Source: Nitrospiraceae bacterium
GTDB taxonomy: Bacteria; Nitrospirota; Thermodesulfovibrionia; UBA6902
Direction: 5' to 3'
Length of the DNA stretch: 35,719 bases
Assembly (NCBI GenBank): GCA_020356065.1
Contig: CP070632.1
Coordinates: forward strand, 1,694,468-1,730,186
Under the pieces are notes generated by a model. That model was not told the DNA's origin, did no database searches, and saw only the letters and a list, made by a program, of their open reading frames with translations. A program made the position numbers and the translations under genes. This document shows positions 1 through 17,914 of this stretch, in pieces. Positions within the stretch are counted from its first letter, which is position 1. Each line of letters starts with the position of its first letter.

Positions 1-455
1 CCGTTCACAGCAGCAGCAGACACTCCATCAGGGAACCCCTCTGTCTTCATACCGCGATTGCCTTCAACTACTTCGGCCAGGGTGTTATCAAGAGAGCCCA
101 TGATTCTCCCTGCTTTTGAATGGTGTGAGTTGATAAACTCATCAACTTCTTTTTCGTGGCATCTGGAACAATCCTTTGGTGAAACAATGATTGAAACGAA
201 AACCCCTTCATGTTCAATCGCATCCGGATCGCCCTTCTGGGCCTCATGACATTCGTAACATCCGACATTGGCGCGAAAATGCTTGCTTCTGCCCCATTCC
301 TGGTAAATATTTACACTTGTTTCTTTATGACATCCAACACATTCCTGACTTGCTGTGGACAGATCTTTGGGAATATTAATTGTTGTTTCTGCAAGTGCAT
401 GAGAAAATGTCGCAAGAATACATGCAATAAAAATAAGATATAGAATTTTTTTCAT
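1..455 (-). CDS. HAO-like multihaem cytochrome c, N-terminal part (cut by left edge)
   Basis: This is the N-terminal ~151 residues of an exported multihaem cytochrome; the rest lies beyond the left edge. A signal peptide (MKKILYLIF... cut near ALA-ET) is followed by three c-haem motifs, CVGCH, CYECH and CSRCH. The spacing and the text between them (EWGRSKH, SPKDCSRCH, NSHHSKAG, GSLDNTLAEVVEG) resemble the octahaem hydroxylamine-oxidoreductase-like proteins of nitrate-ammonifying anaerobes rather than NrfA. The start at 455 is chosen because AGGAGG at 465-470 is 9 nt away; an ATG at 461 is too close. It lies 106 nt downstream of napD on the same strand, so it may share its transcript. The likely role is periplasmic reduction or oxidation of nitrite, NO or hydroxylamine, with direction unknown. 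The P460-crosslinking Tyr and the remaining haems cannot be seen. The family call is fairly secure; the substrate is inference. Confidence 0.8.
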   Translation of the reverse strand, partial: MKKILYLIFIACILATFSHALAETTINIPKDLSTASQECVGCHKETSVNIYQEWGRSKHFRANVGCYECHEAQKGDPDAIEHEGVFVSIIVSPKDCSRCHEKEVDEFINSHHSKAGRIMGSLDNTLAEVVEGNRGMKTEGFPDGVSAAAVN

Positions 456-561
456 TACCATTAACCTCCTTTTTATTTTATTTGTGGTTCTTTGATTAAG
501 AATGTCTCATAACCTCCTTTCTTCTGTGTTGGCCCATCGTGTAATCTTCATGTATTACGAC

Positions 562-1106: not shown

Positions 1107-1799
1107 TCAGTCCATAAACCGGTACCCGGCCCCTGACACCGTTATGATGTATTCCGGTTTTGCAGGATCTTTTTCAATCTTTTGCCTCAGGTGTTGTATG
1201 TGAACATCAATAACTCTGCTCCATGAATAAATATGCGAGTCTTTCCAGATATTCTTTCGTATTGTTTCCCTGCTTAATGCCTCTCCTCTGTGACTCACAA
1301 GAAAACATAACAGATGATACTCTTTTGGCGTGAGGTCAATATTGTGCCCCGACACAGATACGAGACGTTTTTTATAATCAATTTTCATGTTCCCGACCTC
1401 TATCTGCTCCTCGTTTAATGGTGACTTGACCCTCCTGAGGCAGGCCTTGATCCTGGCAACCAGTTCCAGTGTTTCAAAGGGCTTTACCACATAGTCATCA
1501 GCCCCGCTTTCCAGCCCCATGACCTTGTCTGATATCTTGTCTTTTGCCGTGAGCATGATAATCGGTACTTCCGCCATATCCTTTCTCAACTCACGACATA
1601 TTTCCATCCCGTCTCCGTCGGGCAGCATTATGTCCAGAATAATAAGATCCGGTACCGAAAGAGCCAACACTTCCCGTGCCTTCTGCCATGTATCTGCTGT
1701 ATCAACCTGATAGTTATGAAGTTCAAGGTTTGCCTTCAGGACCTTTAGAATGTCAGCATCATCATCGACTGCCAGAATACGATTATTCATTGCGTGCAT
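1107..1799 (-). CDS. OmpR/PhoB-family response regulator
   Basis: A 230-residue two-component response regulator. The receiver domain (residues ~7-120) has the acidic pocket VDDDAD, the phosphoacceptor D56 in LIILDIMLP, the conserved T of MLTAKD and the K of DDYVVKPF. The C-terminal winged-helix DNA-binding domain (~135-228) contains LTPKEYHLLCFL and the recognition-helix region SRVIDVHIQHLRQKIE. It overlaps the upstream sensor-kinase gene by 17 nt, so the two are translationally coupled and almost certainly partners. Starts at M1 (1799) and M4 (1790) are both possible. Its neighbours are the nap cluster and an HAO-like gene, so it likely controls nitrogen-oxide respiration. The TTTACA arrays on both sides are its most plausible binding sites, which is inference. 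Confidence 0.95.
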   Translation of the reverse strand: MHAMNNRILAVDDDADILKVLKANLELHNYQVDTADTWQKAREVLALSVPDLIILDIMLPDGDGMEICRELRKDMAEVPIIMLTAKDKISDKVMGLESGADDYVVKPFETLELVARIKACLRRVKSPLNEEQIEVGNMKIDYKKRLVSVSGHNIDLTPKEYHLLCFLVSHRGEALSRETIRKNIWKDSHIYSWSRVIDVHIQHLRQKIEKDPAKPEYIITVSGAGYRFMD

Positions 1800-3441
1800 A
1801 CCTGTTGTCTGTTTTAAGTGTAAAAGCTATGGCGCTCCCCTGTCCTTCGGGAATATCAAGCACCCTGATTTCACCGTTATGGGCCTCTATTATACCCTTG
1901 CATATGGCCAGTCCAAGGCCGGTGCCCCTTCTCTTGCCCACTGTATAAAACTTGTCAAAAATCTTTTCCCTGACCTCTGCAGGTATGCCAGGACCTTTGT
2001 CCTTGATCACCACCTGTACCTGTTTCTCATCCTCTGTAACTTCAACCTCGATCACTGTTTCATCAGGACAGAAATGGATGGCATTGGAGATAAGATTTAT
2101 CAGGACCTGCCTTATCCTGTCTTCATCTGCACTTATGATAATTTCCGGTTCCGCGATTATCCTGAAAGTTATATTTCTCTCCTCGGTCAGGGACTGAACA
2201 GAAATTATGACTTCCTTGATCAGAGATATCATGTCTACGTGATCGATATGCAGATCAAACATTCCTGATTCAAGCCGCTCAAGATCAAGAGTATCATTGA
2301 CCATATGTGTAAGCCTGTCAGCGTTATTTTTCAGAACATTCAGAAACTCCATAATCTCTTCCCGGTCCCTTCCCTGCACGCTCATTTTCTGAATCCTGGC
2401 CGATATGAAATCCATTGCCCCTTTTATCGATGTCATGGGAGTCCTTAATTCATGGGATATTTTGGCAATAAAGTCAGATTTCTTTTCATTGAGCTCGGCG
2501 AGTCTTTCATTTGCCTCTTCAAAACTCCGCGTAGCGGTCCTTACCTTGTCCTCAAGTTCACTGTGATATTCTCTCAGTGATTTGGACATCTGGACAAATG
2601 AACTGCTCAGGTCCTCGAGCTCATCTCCTGTCCGGAGTGCTGCCGTCTCGCTTGTGTCTCCTCGGGAGAAATCCTCTATGGATGTCTTCAACTGCTTTAC
2701 AGGTCTGAGGACAAGTGCTTTCATCATGAAGAACAGGACAACCATCAATATAAAAATTGTAGCGATACTCGCGGCGATCATGGTCCTTTTTTCAGATTGT
2801 ATCATTGATAGAGCATAATTCATGGGTATGGAAACACTAATGGCACCTCTCACATCTCCTACTTTATAACCCTGATGAGCATGGCAGCTGAGACACGCAT
2901 CCTCAACATATAACGGTGCTATATAGCGGTAGAAAAGAGAGGAGTCTATCTCCTCAATTTTCGAAGCATCTTTGGCATTGCCAAACTCAAATTTCCTGAG
3001 AGCAGACTCTTCAAATTCATCAGGTGCATTTTCCGGATTTGTCAGCTTCAGACTTGTTATGTTGAACAGATACGCACCTTCCTCCCTGGCGTATTTTGAA
3101 AGCTCTTTCGTGACCATTGCAGGACTTTCTCTTATGTACTTCTTTCCTCTGAGGTCAACAAGCTCGGAATCAGAAAGATAGGGACTGGCCTTTTTCCAGG
3201 GGAACTTTTCTACGAAAACTCCGCCGTGGTCAGCTATCCATCTCCTCGTCAGCACTATTTGTGAAAACAGCGTCTTTGCCTGTATATCAAGCTGCTCAAT
3301 TATCAGATCACTGTCTTTTTTCGATATAAAGTAAGAGGATATAGACATTGCAACAATCAAAACGACACCTGTTCCGATTATAAATTTCAGACTTAAACTT
3401 ATCCTCAGCGACCGGAATTCCTGAATTAGTTTTTTCAACAT
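1783..3441 (-). CDS. Membrane sensor histidine kinase with c-haem DUF3365 sensor domain
   Basis: A 552-residue kinase. Order: an N-terminal membrane helix (~residues 18-38), a periplasmic DUF3365 (Tll0287-like) domain with a c-haem motif CLSCH at 183-187 followed by HQGYKVGDVRGAISVSIP, a second helix (~220-242), HAMP (~245-295), a short coiled coil, HisKA with phosphoacceptor H330 in ISHELRTP, and a HATPase_c domain with N-box NLISNAIHF, DKGPGIP and GTGLGLAICKGI. A covalent haem in the periplasm suggests sensing of redox state or a haem ligand such as NO or nitrite; which one is not readable from sequence. It overlaps the response-regulator gene. A TTTACA-N5-TGTAAA inverted repeat lies about 40 nt upstream of the start and may allow autoregulation. 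It is divergent from napA. Confidence 0.93.
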   Translation of the reverse strand: MLKKLIQEFRSLRISLSLKFIIGTGVVLIVAMSISSYFISKKDSDLIIEQLDIQAKTLFSQIVLTRRWIADHGGVFVEKFPWKKASPYLSDSELVDLRGKKYIRESPAMVTKELSKYAREEGAYLFNITSLKLTNPENAPDEFEESALRKFEFGNAKDASKIEEIDSSLFYRYIAPLYVEDACLSCHAHQGYKVGDVRGAISVSIPMNYALSMIQSEKRTMIAASIATIFILMVVLFFMMKALVLRPVKQLKTSIEDFSRGDTSETAALRTGDELEDLSSSFVQMSKSLREYHSELEDKVRTATRSFEEANERLAELNEKKSDFIAKISHELRTPMTSIKGAMDFISARIQKMSVQGRDREEIMEFLNVLKNNADRLTHMVNDTLDLERLESGMFDLHIDHVDMISLIKEVIISVQSLTEERNITFRIIAEPEIIISADEDRIRQVLINLISNAIHFCPDETVIEVEVTEDEKQVQVVIKDKGPGIPAEVREKIFDKFYTVGKRRGTGLGLAICKGIIEAHNGEIRVLDIPEGQGSAIAFTLKTDNRYARNE

Positions 3442-9493: not shown

Positions 9494-9508
9494 TGGCACA
9501 ATTCAGGC
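9494..9508 (+). promoter_or_regulatory. rpoN-dependent: Sigma-54 (RpoN)-type promoter candidate
   Basis: TGGCAC-AATTC-AGGC keeps the invariant GG-N10-GC spacing and the full TGGCAC -24 element; the -12 TT is AG. Transcription would start near 9520, about 37 nt before the kinase-like gene. No RpoN activator is encoded in the window. Confidence 0.5.
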
Positions 9509-9556
9509 TAGACGAACAAGGAAAAATGAGATACGATTGAGGTAAGAGGTCACATA

Positions 9557-10561
9557 ATGGTCAATCAGTCAATTATGGACAGGGGAGAATTTACCCAGGA
9601 GGATCTGAAGAAGCTGGCCGCTCAATGCATAGGGCATGTTCGGGTACCCGACAAGTTCAGAATCATAACCGACACCTCTAATTTTTTCAGTGTGGATTTT
9701 AATGACATCCTGGTCCTTGACGGCAATCCCTATCTGATCAGGAATTATGAAAGGGAAGGCAGATTTGGCATTGAAGACCAGCCAAAATACTGGGTCAAAA
9801 GGGCGATAGAACTGACCACCGGAAAACTGAAAGTCATTAAAATGGTCTTCCCGGAAAAATTTACCGCACGAATAGGCGATCTGACCTTTGATTGCGTCCG
9901 CAGTCCAAAAAAAGAAGCACGTATTCTTGAGCTGGTGAGAGGTCACCGGAATTTTATGCAGGGCATGAGCACCAAAGATTCCGCCGGAAATATTATCAGA
10001 ATTATTGACTATATTCGGGGCTCCACAATGGCAGATTATGTCCTCACACTTGGGAATGACCATTACGAATATTTTTTTGAATTCTTCCCCCCCCTGTTAA
10101 ATGATTATATTGATTTGGTTAAAGCCATTCAGTTTCTACATAACAGTGGGGAGAAACATGGTGATATCAGACGCGATCATATCATCAGAAGTAAACATGA
10201 CAGCTCTTACTGCTGGATAGATTTTGATTTCAATTACTGGCATCAGGAAAACATGTTCACTTATGATATGTTTGGCCTGGGGAATATTCTCATATACCTG
10301 GTAGGCCGGGGAGATGTGACATCACAGCACCTTCGCAAGAGCAGCACTTCTGTATTTGATCAGTTGATCACAGGTGACCTGAACATTGTTTTTAATAACC
10401 GGGTTGCCAATCTTCAAAAAGTGTATCCCTATATACCCGATGTACTCAATAATATCCTGCTCCATTTTTCATTCAGTGCCGACACATTCTATGATGATAC
10501 CGACCAGTTCCTGAGTGACCTCGAGGAAGCGAAAACATATATAAATACCTTTACAAAATGA
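9557..10561 (+). CDS. Protein-kinase-like protein with degenerate motifs
   Basis: A 334-residue protein with a recognisable but diverged kinase fold at ~88-270. K95 in KVIKMVF fits the ATP-anchoring Lys and E120 in KKEARIL the helix-C Glu. HGDIRRDHII (201-210) replaces HRDLKxxNxx: it keeps Asp203, has Arg for Lys and His for the metal-binding Asn. IDFD (221-224) replaces DFG. A glycine-rich loop is not evident. The ~85 N-terminal residues form no domain I recognise. It overlaps the next gene's leader and sits behind a sigma-54-like promoter, so kinase-like protein, UspA and hemerythrin probably form one stress operon. It could be an active atypical kinase, a pseudokinase, or a small-molecule phosphotransferase. 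Confidence 0.75.
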   Translation: MVNQSIMDRGEFTQEDLKKLAAQCIGHVRVPDKFRIITDTSNFFSVDFNDILVLDGNPYLIRNYEREGRFGIEDQPKYWVKRAIELTTGKLKVIKMVFPEKFTARIGDLTFDCVRSPKKEARILELVRGHRNFMQGMSTKDSAGNIIRIIDYIRGSTMADYVLTLGNDHYEYFFEFFPPLLNDYIDLVKAIQFLHNSGEKHGDIRRDHIIRSKHDSSYCWIDFDFNYWHQENMFTYDMFGLGNILIYLVGRGDVTSQHLRKSSTSVFDQLITGDLNIVFNNRVANLQKVYPYIPDVLNNILLHFSFSADTFYDDTDQFLSDLEEAKTYINTFTK

Positions 10562-10572
10562 GAGGAGATGAA

Positions 10573-11061
10573 ATGTTGCCCAGTAAAAATACAGCTCGTG
10601 TAAAACCGGAAACGGACAGACATGTTCTTGTTGCGCTGGATGAATCAGAAAATGCAAAAAGGGCCCTTTTATACGCTGCTGATTTTCTCGGCGGTTCCCC
10701 GGGCTTTCGAGTTACCCTTTTAAGCATTATTGCCGACCCATCGGAAGATTATTTCACTAGCAGTTCTGAAAGAGATGCCTGGATAAAAGATAAAATATCC
10801 AGGTCCAAAGAGCTGTTACATGGGTATCGCGAGATATTAGTTCAGTCCGGTTTTCGGGTCGACAAAGTCGATGTTAAAGTTGAAGTGAAGAACTGCCCCT
10901 CGATTGCTGACTGTATCCTTGAGATTCAGAGGGAGCTCGGGTGCTGTACAATTGTTGTGGGAAGAAGGGGTATAAGCAAAAAAGAAGAGTTTATTTTCGG
11001 CAGCACTTCAAACAAACTGCTTCATTCAGGTAAGAACTGTGCCGTTTGGGTAATAGAGTAA
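10573..11061 (+). CDS. Universal stress protein, UspA family
   Basis: A 162-residue single-domain Usp. The N-terminal strand HVLVALDESENAKRAL and the C-terminal G-R-R-G-x9-G-S-T motif (GRRGISKKEEFIFGST) match the ATP-binding subclass. Start 10573 is chosen because AGAGGAG lies about 6 nt upstream; an ATG at 10558 overlaps the previous stop. It is translationally close to the kinase-like gene, which suggests a shared stress or redox role. Its ligand state is unknown. Confidence 0.88.
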   Translation: MLPSKNTARVKPETDRHVLVALDESENAKRALLYAADFLGGSPGFRVTLLSIIADPSEDYFTSSSERDAWIKDKISRSKELLHGYREILVQSGFRVDKVDVKVEVKNCPSIADCILEIQRELGCCTIVVGRRGISKKEEFIFGSTSNKLLHSGKNCAVWVIE

Positions 11062-11171
11062 CATTCAGAGTTTCTGCTGCTGATGTACTTTTTTTATATG
11101 TAAGATAGATCTCGAAAAAACTTTTAATTTACTGCATACTTGCTTTCAGAATAATAAAAGAGAGGCCGAAT

Positions 11172-11602
11172 ATGGAAATAACCGATAAATTGAAGAAACA
11201 GCATGAGGAAATTTTTAAACTGATGACCGAAATGTCCTCTAAATTGAATTCTGATGACATTGCAAGGGATCCTTCTCAGGTCTGCAAGTTAATATCAGAT
11301 CTTGCAGATGACCTTAATTATCATCTCACAATGGAAGATCACTCTTTTTATCCAAAGTTGTTTAATCATCCTGACAAACATATCGTTGAAACCGCACAGA
11401 AGTTCGTCCGTGAAGTGATCGGTATAAAAGATTCCTTTACTCTTTATACATCCAGATGGAAAGATCATGGTTCAGTACAAAATAATCCTGATAATTTTAT
11501 GAGGATACAAGAAAGATGTTCGAATCTATAACTGACAGAATTTATAAGGAAGACAATATTCTTTATCCTCTGGCTGACAATCTTAGAGAGCAAATGTTCT
11601 GA
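11172..11602 (+). pseudogene. Hemerythrin-like (HHE) protein gene, apparently frameshifted
   Basis: The first frame codes for 119 residues with hemerythrin-type ligand helices: H11 in KKQHEEIF and H51, E55 and H57 in YHLTMEDHSFYPKL. It ends abruptly (IQERCSNL) where the family continues. In the -1 frame the missing last helix is present (MFESITDRIYKEDNILYPLADNLREQMF, in two pieces: ITDRIYKEDNILYPLADN and flanks), ending at 11602. Adding one T to the TTTT run near 11495-11498 joins the frames as DNFYEDTRKMFES. The final helix supplies Glu/Asp ligands, so the short form would be impaired. It may be a real mutation, a sequencing slip in a homopolymer, or slippage. It follows usp by 110 nt. Confidence 0.7.
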
Positions 11603-16585: not shown

Positions 16586-17914
16586 CTATTTCTTTTGCAT
16601 TTTATTGATCATAGTAGATATAACCGAGACCACACGGCGGTTCTTCTTTCTGCCCTCTTCTGACTTGTTGTCAGCTACAGGAAGAAGTTCCCCATGACCA
16701 ATTATTTCCAGTCGTGAAGAATCAATGCCGTACTCCACCAGGCGCTGTTTAACGCTATCAGCCCTTCTCAGGGACAGTTCAAGGTTATACTGCTCAGTAC
16801 CAATATTGCAGGCGTGTCCTTCAATTACGGCTTTCGTATCCGGATAGGTCTTTAGAAACTCTGCAAGTTTCCGGATATCATCTTTATGAGTCTCTTTTAT
16901 AACTGCACTATCGAATTCAAACTCTACCTTTAAATCTACCGATACCTTTTCTTTGACCATGATGGCGCATCCTTTTTCATCAACCTTTACCCCTTCAAGC
17001 GTATCCGGACATTCGTCAAGATAGTCATAAATCCCATCACCATCACTGTCCTTTGGACAGCCGTCACTATCAACCGGAATACCTGCCGGCGTGTCAGGGC
17101 ACCTGTCCCTGTCATCGGTAACCCCGTCTCCATCACTGTCCTTCGGACAGCCTTCACCATCAACCGGAACACCTGCCGGCGTGTCAGGGCACCTGTCCCT
17201 GTCATCGGTAACCCCGTCTCCATCACTGTCCTTCGGACAGCCTTCACCATCAACCGGAACACCTGCCAGCGTGTCAGGGCACCTGTCCCTGTCATCGGTA
17301 ACCCCGTCTCCATCACTGTCACCAGGAGGAAGTGAAACAGTTTTTTTCTTTTTAAACGAGAACATATAGTTCAGACCGACTGTATATATAAAATTATTGC
17401 TTATATCATTAAAATCAACCAGATTTTTACGGTTTGTATTTTCCATCTCCAGGATATGGCGAATATCACCTCTCAAAGCCAAAGACTTGGTAATAAAGTA
17501 TTTAATTCCTCCGCCGTAATTAAGCAGATTATCCGTATTATTCACTCCGGATCCCTGAATATCAATAGTCCCGAGACCAGCACTAATGAACGGTACTAAT
17601 TTCTTTTCGGTACGGAAATGATACAAAGCATCTACCCGGTAAAGAGGAATTTTTATATCCGTACCATTTGACGTTGCTTCGGTATTCATGTAATCAAAGT
17701 TACCCTCGATTCCCAGGCTTCGTGTTATATTAATTCCGATTCCCAGCCCATAAACCACACTGTTATTTATGTCTTTGGAATCTGAAAATGCATATCCCCC
17801 AATATGAGGATGAATCGACACCATTCCCGGCCGCATTTCAGCTGTTATATTTTTAGAAGAAACAGCGCATATTAACAAAAATGAACTAACGATAAAAATT
17901 TTCAAGATTTTCAT
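16586..17914 (-). CDS. OmpA-family outer-membrane protein with thrombospondin-3 repeats
   Basis: A 442-residue structural outer-membrane protein. Order: signal peptide (~1-25), an eight-strand-type beta-barrel (~30-190; SLGIEGNFDYM, FISAGLGTI, YTVGLNYMF), a Ca-binding stalk of four TSP3 repeats (DSDGDGVTDDRDRCPDT..., ~198-318) and an OmpA C-terminal peptidoglycan-binding domain (~330-440; FEFDSAVIKETH, VIEGHACNIG, NLELSLRRADSVKQRL, GHGELLPVADN, GRKKNRRV). Three TSP3 units are encoded by near-identical 90-bp repeats, so repeat number may vary. AGGAGAAC precedes the ATG, itself preceded by a small ATCGCT-GA-AGCGAT hairpin. Its role is to tie the outer membrane to the cell wall; a porin role is possible but unproved. 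Confidence 0.93.
   Translation of the reverse strand: MKILKIFIVSSFLLICAVSSKNITAEMRPGMVSIHPHIGGYAFSDSKDINNSVVYGLGIGINITRSLGIEGNFDYMNTEATSNGTDIKIPLYRVDALYHFRTEKKLVPFISAGLGTIDIQGSGVNNTDNLLNYGGGIKYFITKSLALRGDIRHILEMENTNRKNLVDFNDISNNFIYTVGLNYMFSFKKKKTVSLPPGDSDGDGVTDDRDRCPDTLAGVPVDGEGCPKDSDGDGVTDDRDRCPDTPAGVPVDGEGCPKDSDGDGVTDDRDRCPDTPAGIPVDSDGCPKDSDGDGIYDYLDECPDTLEGVKVDEKGCAIMVKEKVSVDLKVEFEFDSAVIKETHKDDIRKLAEFLKTYPDTKAVIEGHACNIGTEQYNLELSLRRADSVKQRLVEYGIDSSRLEIIGHGELLPVADNKSEEGRKKNRRVVSVISTMINKMQKK
17051..17320. repeat. Three 90-bp tandem repeats (TSP3 coding)
   Basis: Units at 17051-17140, 17141-17230 and 17231-17320 encode 30-residue Asp-rich Ca-binding repeats. The second and third differ by about one base; the first has several differences. 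The in-frame, codon-level identity shows recent duplication and makes length change by slippage likely. Confidence 0.92.

Follow-up and report, generated by a model that had tools for sequence, protein, structure and literature searches.

Conserved pairing in Nitrospirota of a divergent protein-kinase-fold gene with its own universal stress protein gene

Coupling of protein kinases to universal stress proteins (Usps) is known from Mesorhizobium, Bradyrhizobium and Nitrosomonas, in which Ser/Thr kinases carry the Usp as a tethered domain (PMC1262709, PMC2877116). In KdpD, a Usp is found beside the kinase domains, sometimes as a separate KdpD/Usp polypeptide, and atypical serine kinase activity has been described (PMC11018627). 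Some Usps are themselves phosphorylated: the Mycobacterium tuberculosis Usp Rv2623 on T237 (PMC5549992), and Escherichia coli UspA, as cited in PMC7472852. What Usps do and how their phosphorylation is controlled have been questions for decades, and a kinase and a Usp that co-occur almost perfectly are a defined couple on which both can be tested.

The locus described here lies in a 35,719-nt stretch of DNA (the window; G000:C1:1694468-1730186) from a genome assembled as a single contig of 3.17 Mb, the closest named relatives of which are Nitrospirota (Thermodesulfovibrionia) MAGs. Genes for a kinase-like protein, a Usp and a hemerythrin-domain protein are located downstream of napA, napG, napH, napB and napD. 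The original prediction was of a closely spaced three-gene operon, driven by sigma-54 and possibly serving nitrosative or oxygen stress. All three ORFs were confirmed (kinase-like, 9557-10561; Usp, 10558-11061; hemerythrin domain, from 11172). The short spacing holds for the kinase and Usp genes, which overlap at ATGA if the Usp starts at 10558, but the hemerythrin ORF is 110 nt away from the Usp gene. The features are as follows.

9494..9508, plus strand: proposed sigma-54 site, TGGCACAATTCAGGC; rejected as a conserved promoter.
9509..9537, plus strand: sigma-70-type element TAGACG-N17-TACGAT, the likeliest promoter for the pair; common to five relatives.
9557..10561, plus strand: divergent protein-kinase-fold gene, 334 aa (ORF, sub-threshold PF00069 match, AlphaFold2 model, invariant catalytic positions); signature ExRFG, K95, RSPxKEARxL (with E120), HGDIRxDH and IDFD.
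10558..11061, plus strand: dedicated Usp (PF00582) with ATP motif GRRG-x9-GS, downstream of the kinase in 58/63 copies and fused to it in L045; start at 10558 (the ATGA overlap) or, more likely, at ATG 10573 with a GGAG ribosome-binding site.
11172..11531, plus strand: N-terminal part of a hemerythrin-domain ORF (PF01814); optional neighbour, not part of the core.
11507..11602, plus strand: C-terminal remainder of the hemerythrin, out of frame, start approximate; reads TRKMFESITDRIYKEDNILYPL, matching TRKIFSTLCERIKKENSILYPL of L055.

The finding at this locus is a kinase-Usp pair, not a kinase/Usp/hemerythrin triad. A search of 61 related genomes recovered the kinase in 23, each at more than 270 bits (24 rows passed the E-value cut-off, one of which was a weak 18-bit match and was left out). 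Of 346 genomes searched across the phylum, 48 had it; matches were either strong or absent, with none in between. Flanking DNA was read for 63 Nitrospirota copies, and in 58 the Usp gene was directly 3' of the kinase on the same strand, an adjacency that spans many Nitrospirota families. Two of the five exceptions stop at contig edges (L100 and L105). The other three (L040, L106 and L114) belong to one genus (g30), in which the kinase stands alone and the same Usp subfamily is kept at another locus. Among the 61 relatives, 22 of the 23 with the kinase also had this subfamily (called at >200 bits; next best match, 90), and all 38 without the kinase lacked it (Fisher p ~1e-15); in the single kinase-bearing genome with no match, the kinase is cut by a contig end. 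Synteny of the three genes, the check proposed with the original prediction, was borne out strongly for the first two and not for the hemerythrin. The genes flanking the pair are unrelated and vary by locus, with no common pathway among them.

In L045 the kinase and Usp form one 491-aa ORF, with the Usp domain at residues 345-490; the fusion was seen only once, in a MAG, and may result from faulty assembly. The two gene trees had 30 of 54 splits in common, and their distances correlated with a Mantel r of 0.77 (none of 999 permutations as high). A 21-member set comprising family f25, which belongs to a different class from the window's order, and part of f1/f3 was recovered in both trees (supports 99 and 95). 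The agreement of the trees, including this set, suggests that the two genes have been passed on together by descent and, probably, by transfer.

Several loci were recorded in passing. Genome G027 carries two divergent kinase-Usp pairs (L037 and L036), each kinase with a clade-matched Usp. At L034 (9590-13061) and L036 the pair is followed on the same strand by a gene for a 385-aa unannotated protein and then a Lon-type AAA protease gene. The kinases and neighbouring genes of L126 and L127 are identical although their genomes are assigned to different families (G313, f8; G339, f17), which suggests contamination or misbinning of one MAG.

The kinase-like protein falls below the gathering cut-off of Pfam Pkinase (PF00069), scoring 17.2 bits in the window and 17.2 to 27.5 bits overall against a cut-off of 31.7, and no NCBIfam family matches it. 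A profile built from 29 kinase sequences matched eukaryotic protein kinases at 9e-8. The AlphaFold2 model (pLDDT 88, pTM 0.87) matched PDB structures with TM-scores to target of up to 0.66; the top 50 matches listed were all protein kinases or kinase homologues, the best being the kinase-homology domain of Rv3910, placed first, and PknB. In an alignment of 88 sequences from Nitrospirota, Zixibacteria and Bacteroidota, the beta3 Lys (K95), alpha-C Glu (E120), HRD Asp (D203) and DFG Asp (D222) were invariant, as were H201, R205, D207, H208 and D224. The earlier description of the protein as kinase-like is therefore upheld, and by its modelled fold and catalytic residues it is a soluble, divergent member of the protein kinase superfamily. 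Two departures from the canonical kinase were found. The metal-binding Asn after HRD is replaced by His208 in 88/88 sequences, and the glycine loop GxGxxG is absent, its place taken by ExRFG with E67, R69 and F70 invariant; a limited literature search returned no description of this His-for-Asn/ExRFG motif. Catalysis could consequently be lost or unusual, and metal use could be altered.

The Usp matches PF00582 at 64.3 bits over profile positions 3-140 of 141 (cut-off 24). It had been described as an ATP-binding type, and the window protein does carry G-2x-G-9x-G(S/T); however, no more than 31 of the 58 partner Usps have it in full, and it is therefore not a family-wide trait.

Outside Nitrospirota the kinase has a different partner. 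Strong matches were found in 26 of 132 Zixibacteria genomes, and the next gene encoded a PAS histidine kinase in all 20 loci read. The N-terminal 120 residues of this protein match no Pfam model and appear Rossmann-like by eye. In the longer Zixibacteria loci a response regulator-GcvH protein follows. In Bacteroidota, flanks could be read for a single copy (L028), which shows the same arrangement, and an Ignavibacteria copy (L027) adjoins cas6. The Usp subfamily was absent from the Zixibacteria and Bacteroidota genomes tested, and no histidine kinase of the Zixibacteria type was found elsewhere in the window genome. Usp-partnered and histidine-kinase-partnered sequences formed two clades in the kinase tree, separated by a fully supported branch, with one change of partner. 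That the partner differs by clade points to the kinase as a signalling component. The protein after the histidine kinase, a fusion of a response regulator (REC) with a glycine-cleavage H-protein-like domain (GCV_H), was seen in L024 (9016-11647), L025, L026, L028 and L029. No literature on this fusion was found; its role may be that of an output linked to lipoyl or redox chemistry.

A GG-N10-GC promoter had been proposed upstream of the kinase. The site is present at 9494-9508, but such sites occur at chance frequency (allowing one mismatch, the window has 15 where shuffles give 16.2) and it is unconserved upstream of orthologues. Two better-scoring sigma-54 matches fall within coding sequence. 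Scans of orthologue upstream regions, motif counts and local shuffles revealed no conserved -24/-12 sigma-54 element above chance. As RpoN is encoded in the window genome, these results speak only against conservation of a sigma-54 arrangement and not against RpoN dependence itself. In one relative only, L031, a sequence 213 nt upstream of the kinase (TGGCACGCTATTTGC) looks like a perfect sigma-54 site.

A second element, TAGACR-N17-TACGAT, was present in 6 of 23 kinase upstream regions including that of the window (shuffles: mean 0.17, maximum 2). The 17-nt spacing is identical in the other five (L030, L031, L032, L038 and L039), one of which reads TAGGAT. An extended -10 element, TGNTATAMT, which more distant kinase orthologues carry, was found in 15 of 63 upstream regions against 0.32 in shuffles. 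From these motifs, the pair is most likely transcribed from a sigma-70-type promoter at 9509-9537. Only three matches to TAGACR-N17-TANGAT occur in the genome, so that no regulon is apparent, and no riboswitch or other Rfam RNA was detected upstream of the pair.

The hemerythrin ORF matches PF01814 at 34.5 bits (cut-off 25.3) over profile positions 2-76 of 127 and stops at 11531. The C-terminal helix follows in a different frame that runs to 11602, and comparison with the full-length relative in L055 places a one-base frameshift (one base missing) near 11505-11515; this is either a sequencing indel or a pseudogene. The prediction of a hemerythrin-like protein thus stands for the HHE-domain match but not for a full four-helix domain in one frame. 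As an obligate third gene it fails, since homologues were present in only 2 of 61 relatives and none adjoined the pair. Hemerythrins of a different type, confirmed by Pfam, do occur close to the pair at other loci: upstream and divergently oriented in L043, and downstream on the same strand in 6 of 12 f25 loci (L110, L111, L115, L116 twice, L117 and L120). Sampled genomes contained 0 to 4 hemerythrin genes, giving about 0.1 expected neighbours in 63 loci, an enrichment that, because the window was picked for having a hemerythrin, the f25 loci are kin and the base rate is that of the sampled genomes and not of f25, is no more than suggestive. The neighbours in L043 and f25 weakly encourage a link to oxygen or NO, and from these gene neighbourhoods the hemerythrin is an occasional passenger or optional neighbour, giving a hint of an oxygen or redox setting.

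The tie to nap was not sustained: adjacency to nap is unique to the window, and no nap gene lies near any other copy of the pair. Beside the nap genes, on the minus strand at window 1107-3441, is a two-component system whose histidine kinase has a Tll0287-like domain bearing a CxxCH heme motif. At window 3-461 there is a multiheme cytochrome-like ORF; together these suggest heme-based redox sensing for nap control. Elsewhere (window 16586-17914, minus strand) an OmpA-family protein has several near-identical calcium-type repeats (DSDGDGVTDDRDRCPDT...PVDGEGCPK), which appear as nested ORFs on both strands.

The core of the locus is probably a two-gene signalling unit: a protein kinase, soluble and divergent, with a Usp of its own. 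The kinase would sense or receive a signal, bind ATP and either phosphorylate or conformationally switch the Usp, or be gated by it. The two proteins would bind each other, and the Usp would pass a stress or energy signal to a target not encoded nearby. From the pairing across genomes it is very probable that the kinase and Usp are a physical and functional pair. The AlphaFold2 prediction of the natural fusion L045 (pTM 0.64) gave no confident domain interface. The Usp being the substrate of the kinase, with phosphorylation as the presumed step, is put at slightly under an even chance. In the main alternative to substrate status, the Usp would be mainly a nucleotide-sensing regulatory subunit: depending on its occupancy by ATP/AMP or a second messenger it would switch the kinase, and the kinase would act on an unlinked target. 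The KdpD precedent, the strict pairing, the L045 fusion and the G-2x-G-9x-G(S/T) motif of the window Usp are consistent with this, but the complete ATP motif is missing in 27 of 58 partner Usps and the Zixibacteria clade of the kinase works without the Usp subfamily; such a role is regarded as rather unlikely. A broader proposal, possible but tentative, is that these proteins are an unnamed family of competent kinases, defined by ExRFG and by HGDIRxDH with its His as metal ligand or phospho-carrier, which switches partner by clade between a Usp and a PAS histidine kinase/REC-GcvH system, and that the Nitrospirota genes would be the first dedicated kinase-Usp substrate pair in the phylum.

His208 in place of the metal-binding Asn and the atypical glycine loop, both found in all sequences, would suit a pseudokinase scaffold that binds ATP or a partner and transfers no phosphate, and the best fold match, the Rv3910 kinase-homology domain, belongs to a family listed among pseudokinases (PMC12599244). 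That survey takes the beta3 Lys, HRD Asp and DFG Asp as its criterion; all three are kept here, which marks the protein as a potential active kinase, and together with the alpha-C Glu they are invariant in 88/88 sequences, unlike the pseudokinase families of the same survey. Judged by its conserved residues the protein is likely to be catalytically active, and a scaffold role is doubtful. The original reading of a sigma-54-controlled nitrosative or oxygen stress operon tied to nap can still draw on the collinear genes, the encoded RpoN, the hemerythrins near the pair in L043 and f25, and the oxygen regulon shared by hemerythrin and Usp genes in Myxococcus xanthus (PMC11841059); it is nevertheless very improbable, as GG-N10-GC is unconserved where sigma-70-type elements are conserved, the hemerythrin is frameshifted and absent beside other pairs, and nap is near no other copy. 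Least probable, and barely credible, is a kinase module that serves in anti-phage defence or resembles a toxin-antitoxin system: PADLOC returned weak matches to the defence kinases PD-T4-6 and MkoA, but the strongest scored 25.8 bits and they are explained by shared kinase motifs, no matches were found on plasmids or phages, and the flanks are housekeeping or signalling genes except for the Ignavibacteria copy beside cas6.

Compared with known systems, the two-gene unit favoured here resembles the proteobacterial and plant Usp-kinase fusions in coupling a protein kinase to a Usp, and in the natural fusion L045 the kinase comes first and the Usp forms the C-terminal part. Compared by domain coupling with the proteobacterial fusions, it differs in consisting mostly of two genes, in Nitrospirota, and in a kinase that falls below the Pkinase cut-off and has its own motifs, HGDIRxDH and ExRFG. 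KdpD/Usp (PMC11018627) likewise couples kinase activity to a Usp module that is sometimes a separate polypeptide, but the KdpD kinase is of Walker type and has a potassium pump as its substrate, where the present protein has a protein-kinase-like fold, and no kdp genes are near the window copy. Rv2623 (PMC5549992) is also a Usp, and its function depends on Thr phosphorylation; it is a tandem-domain Usp, and in the part of that source consulted no dedicated neighbouring kinase is linked to it. The Rv3910 (MviN) kinase-homology domain and PknB share the protein-kinase fold at 12-16% identity, and Rv3910 is without the catalytic residues that are invariant in the family described here. The locus presents a kinase family below Pfam and NCBIfam cut-offs with an invariant His where kinases have Asn, and its switch between a Usp and a two-component partner could reveal how signalling of the Ser/Thr type is joined to two-component signalling.
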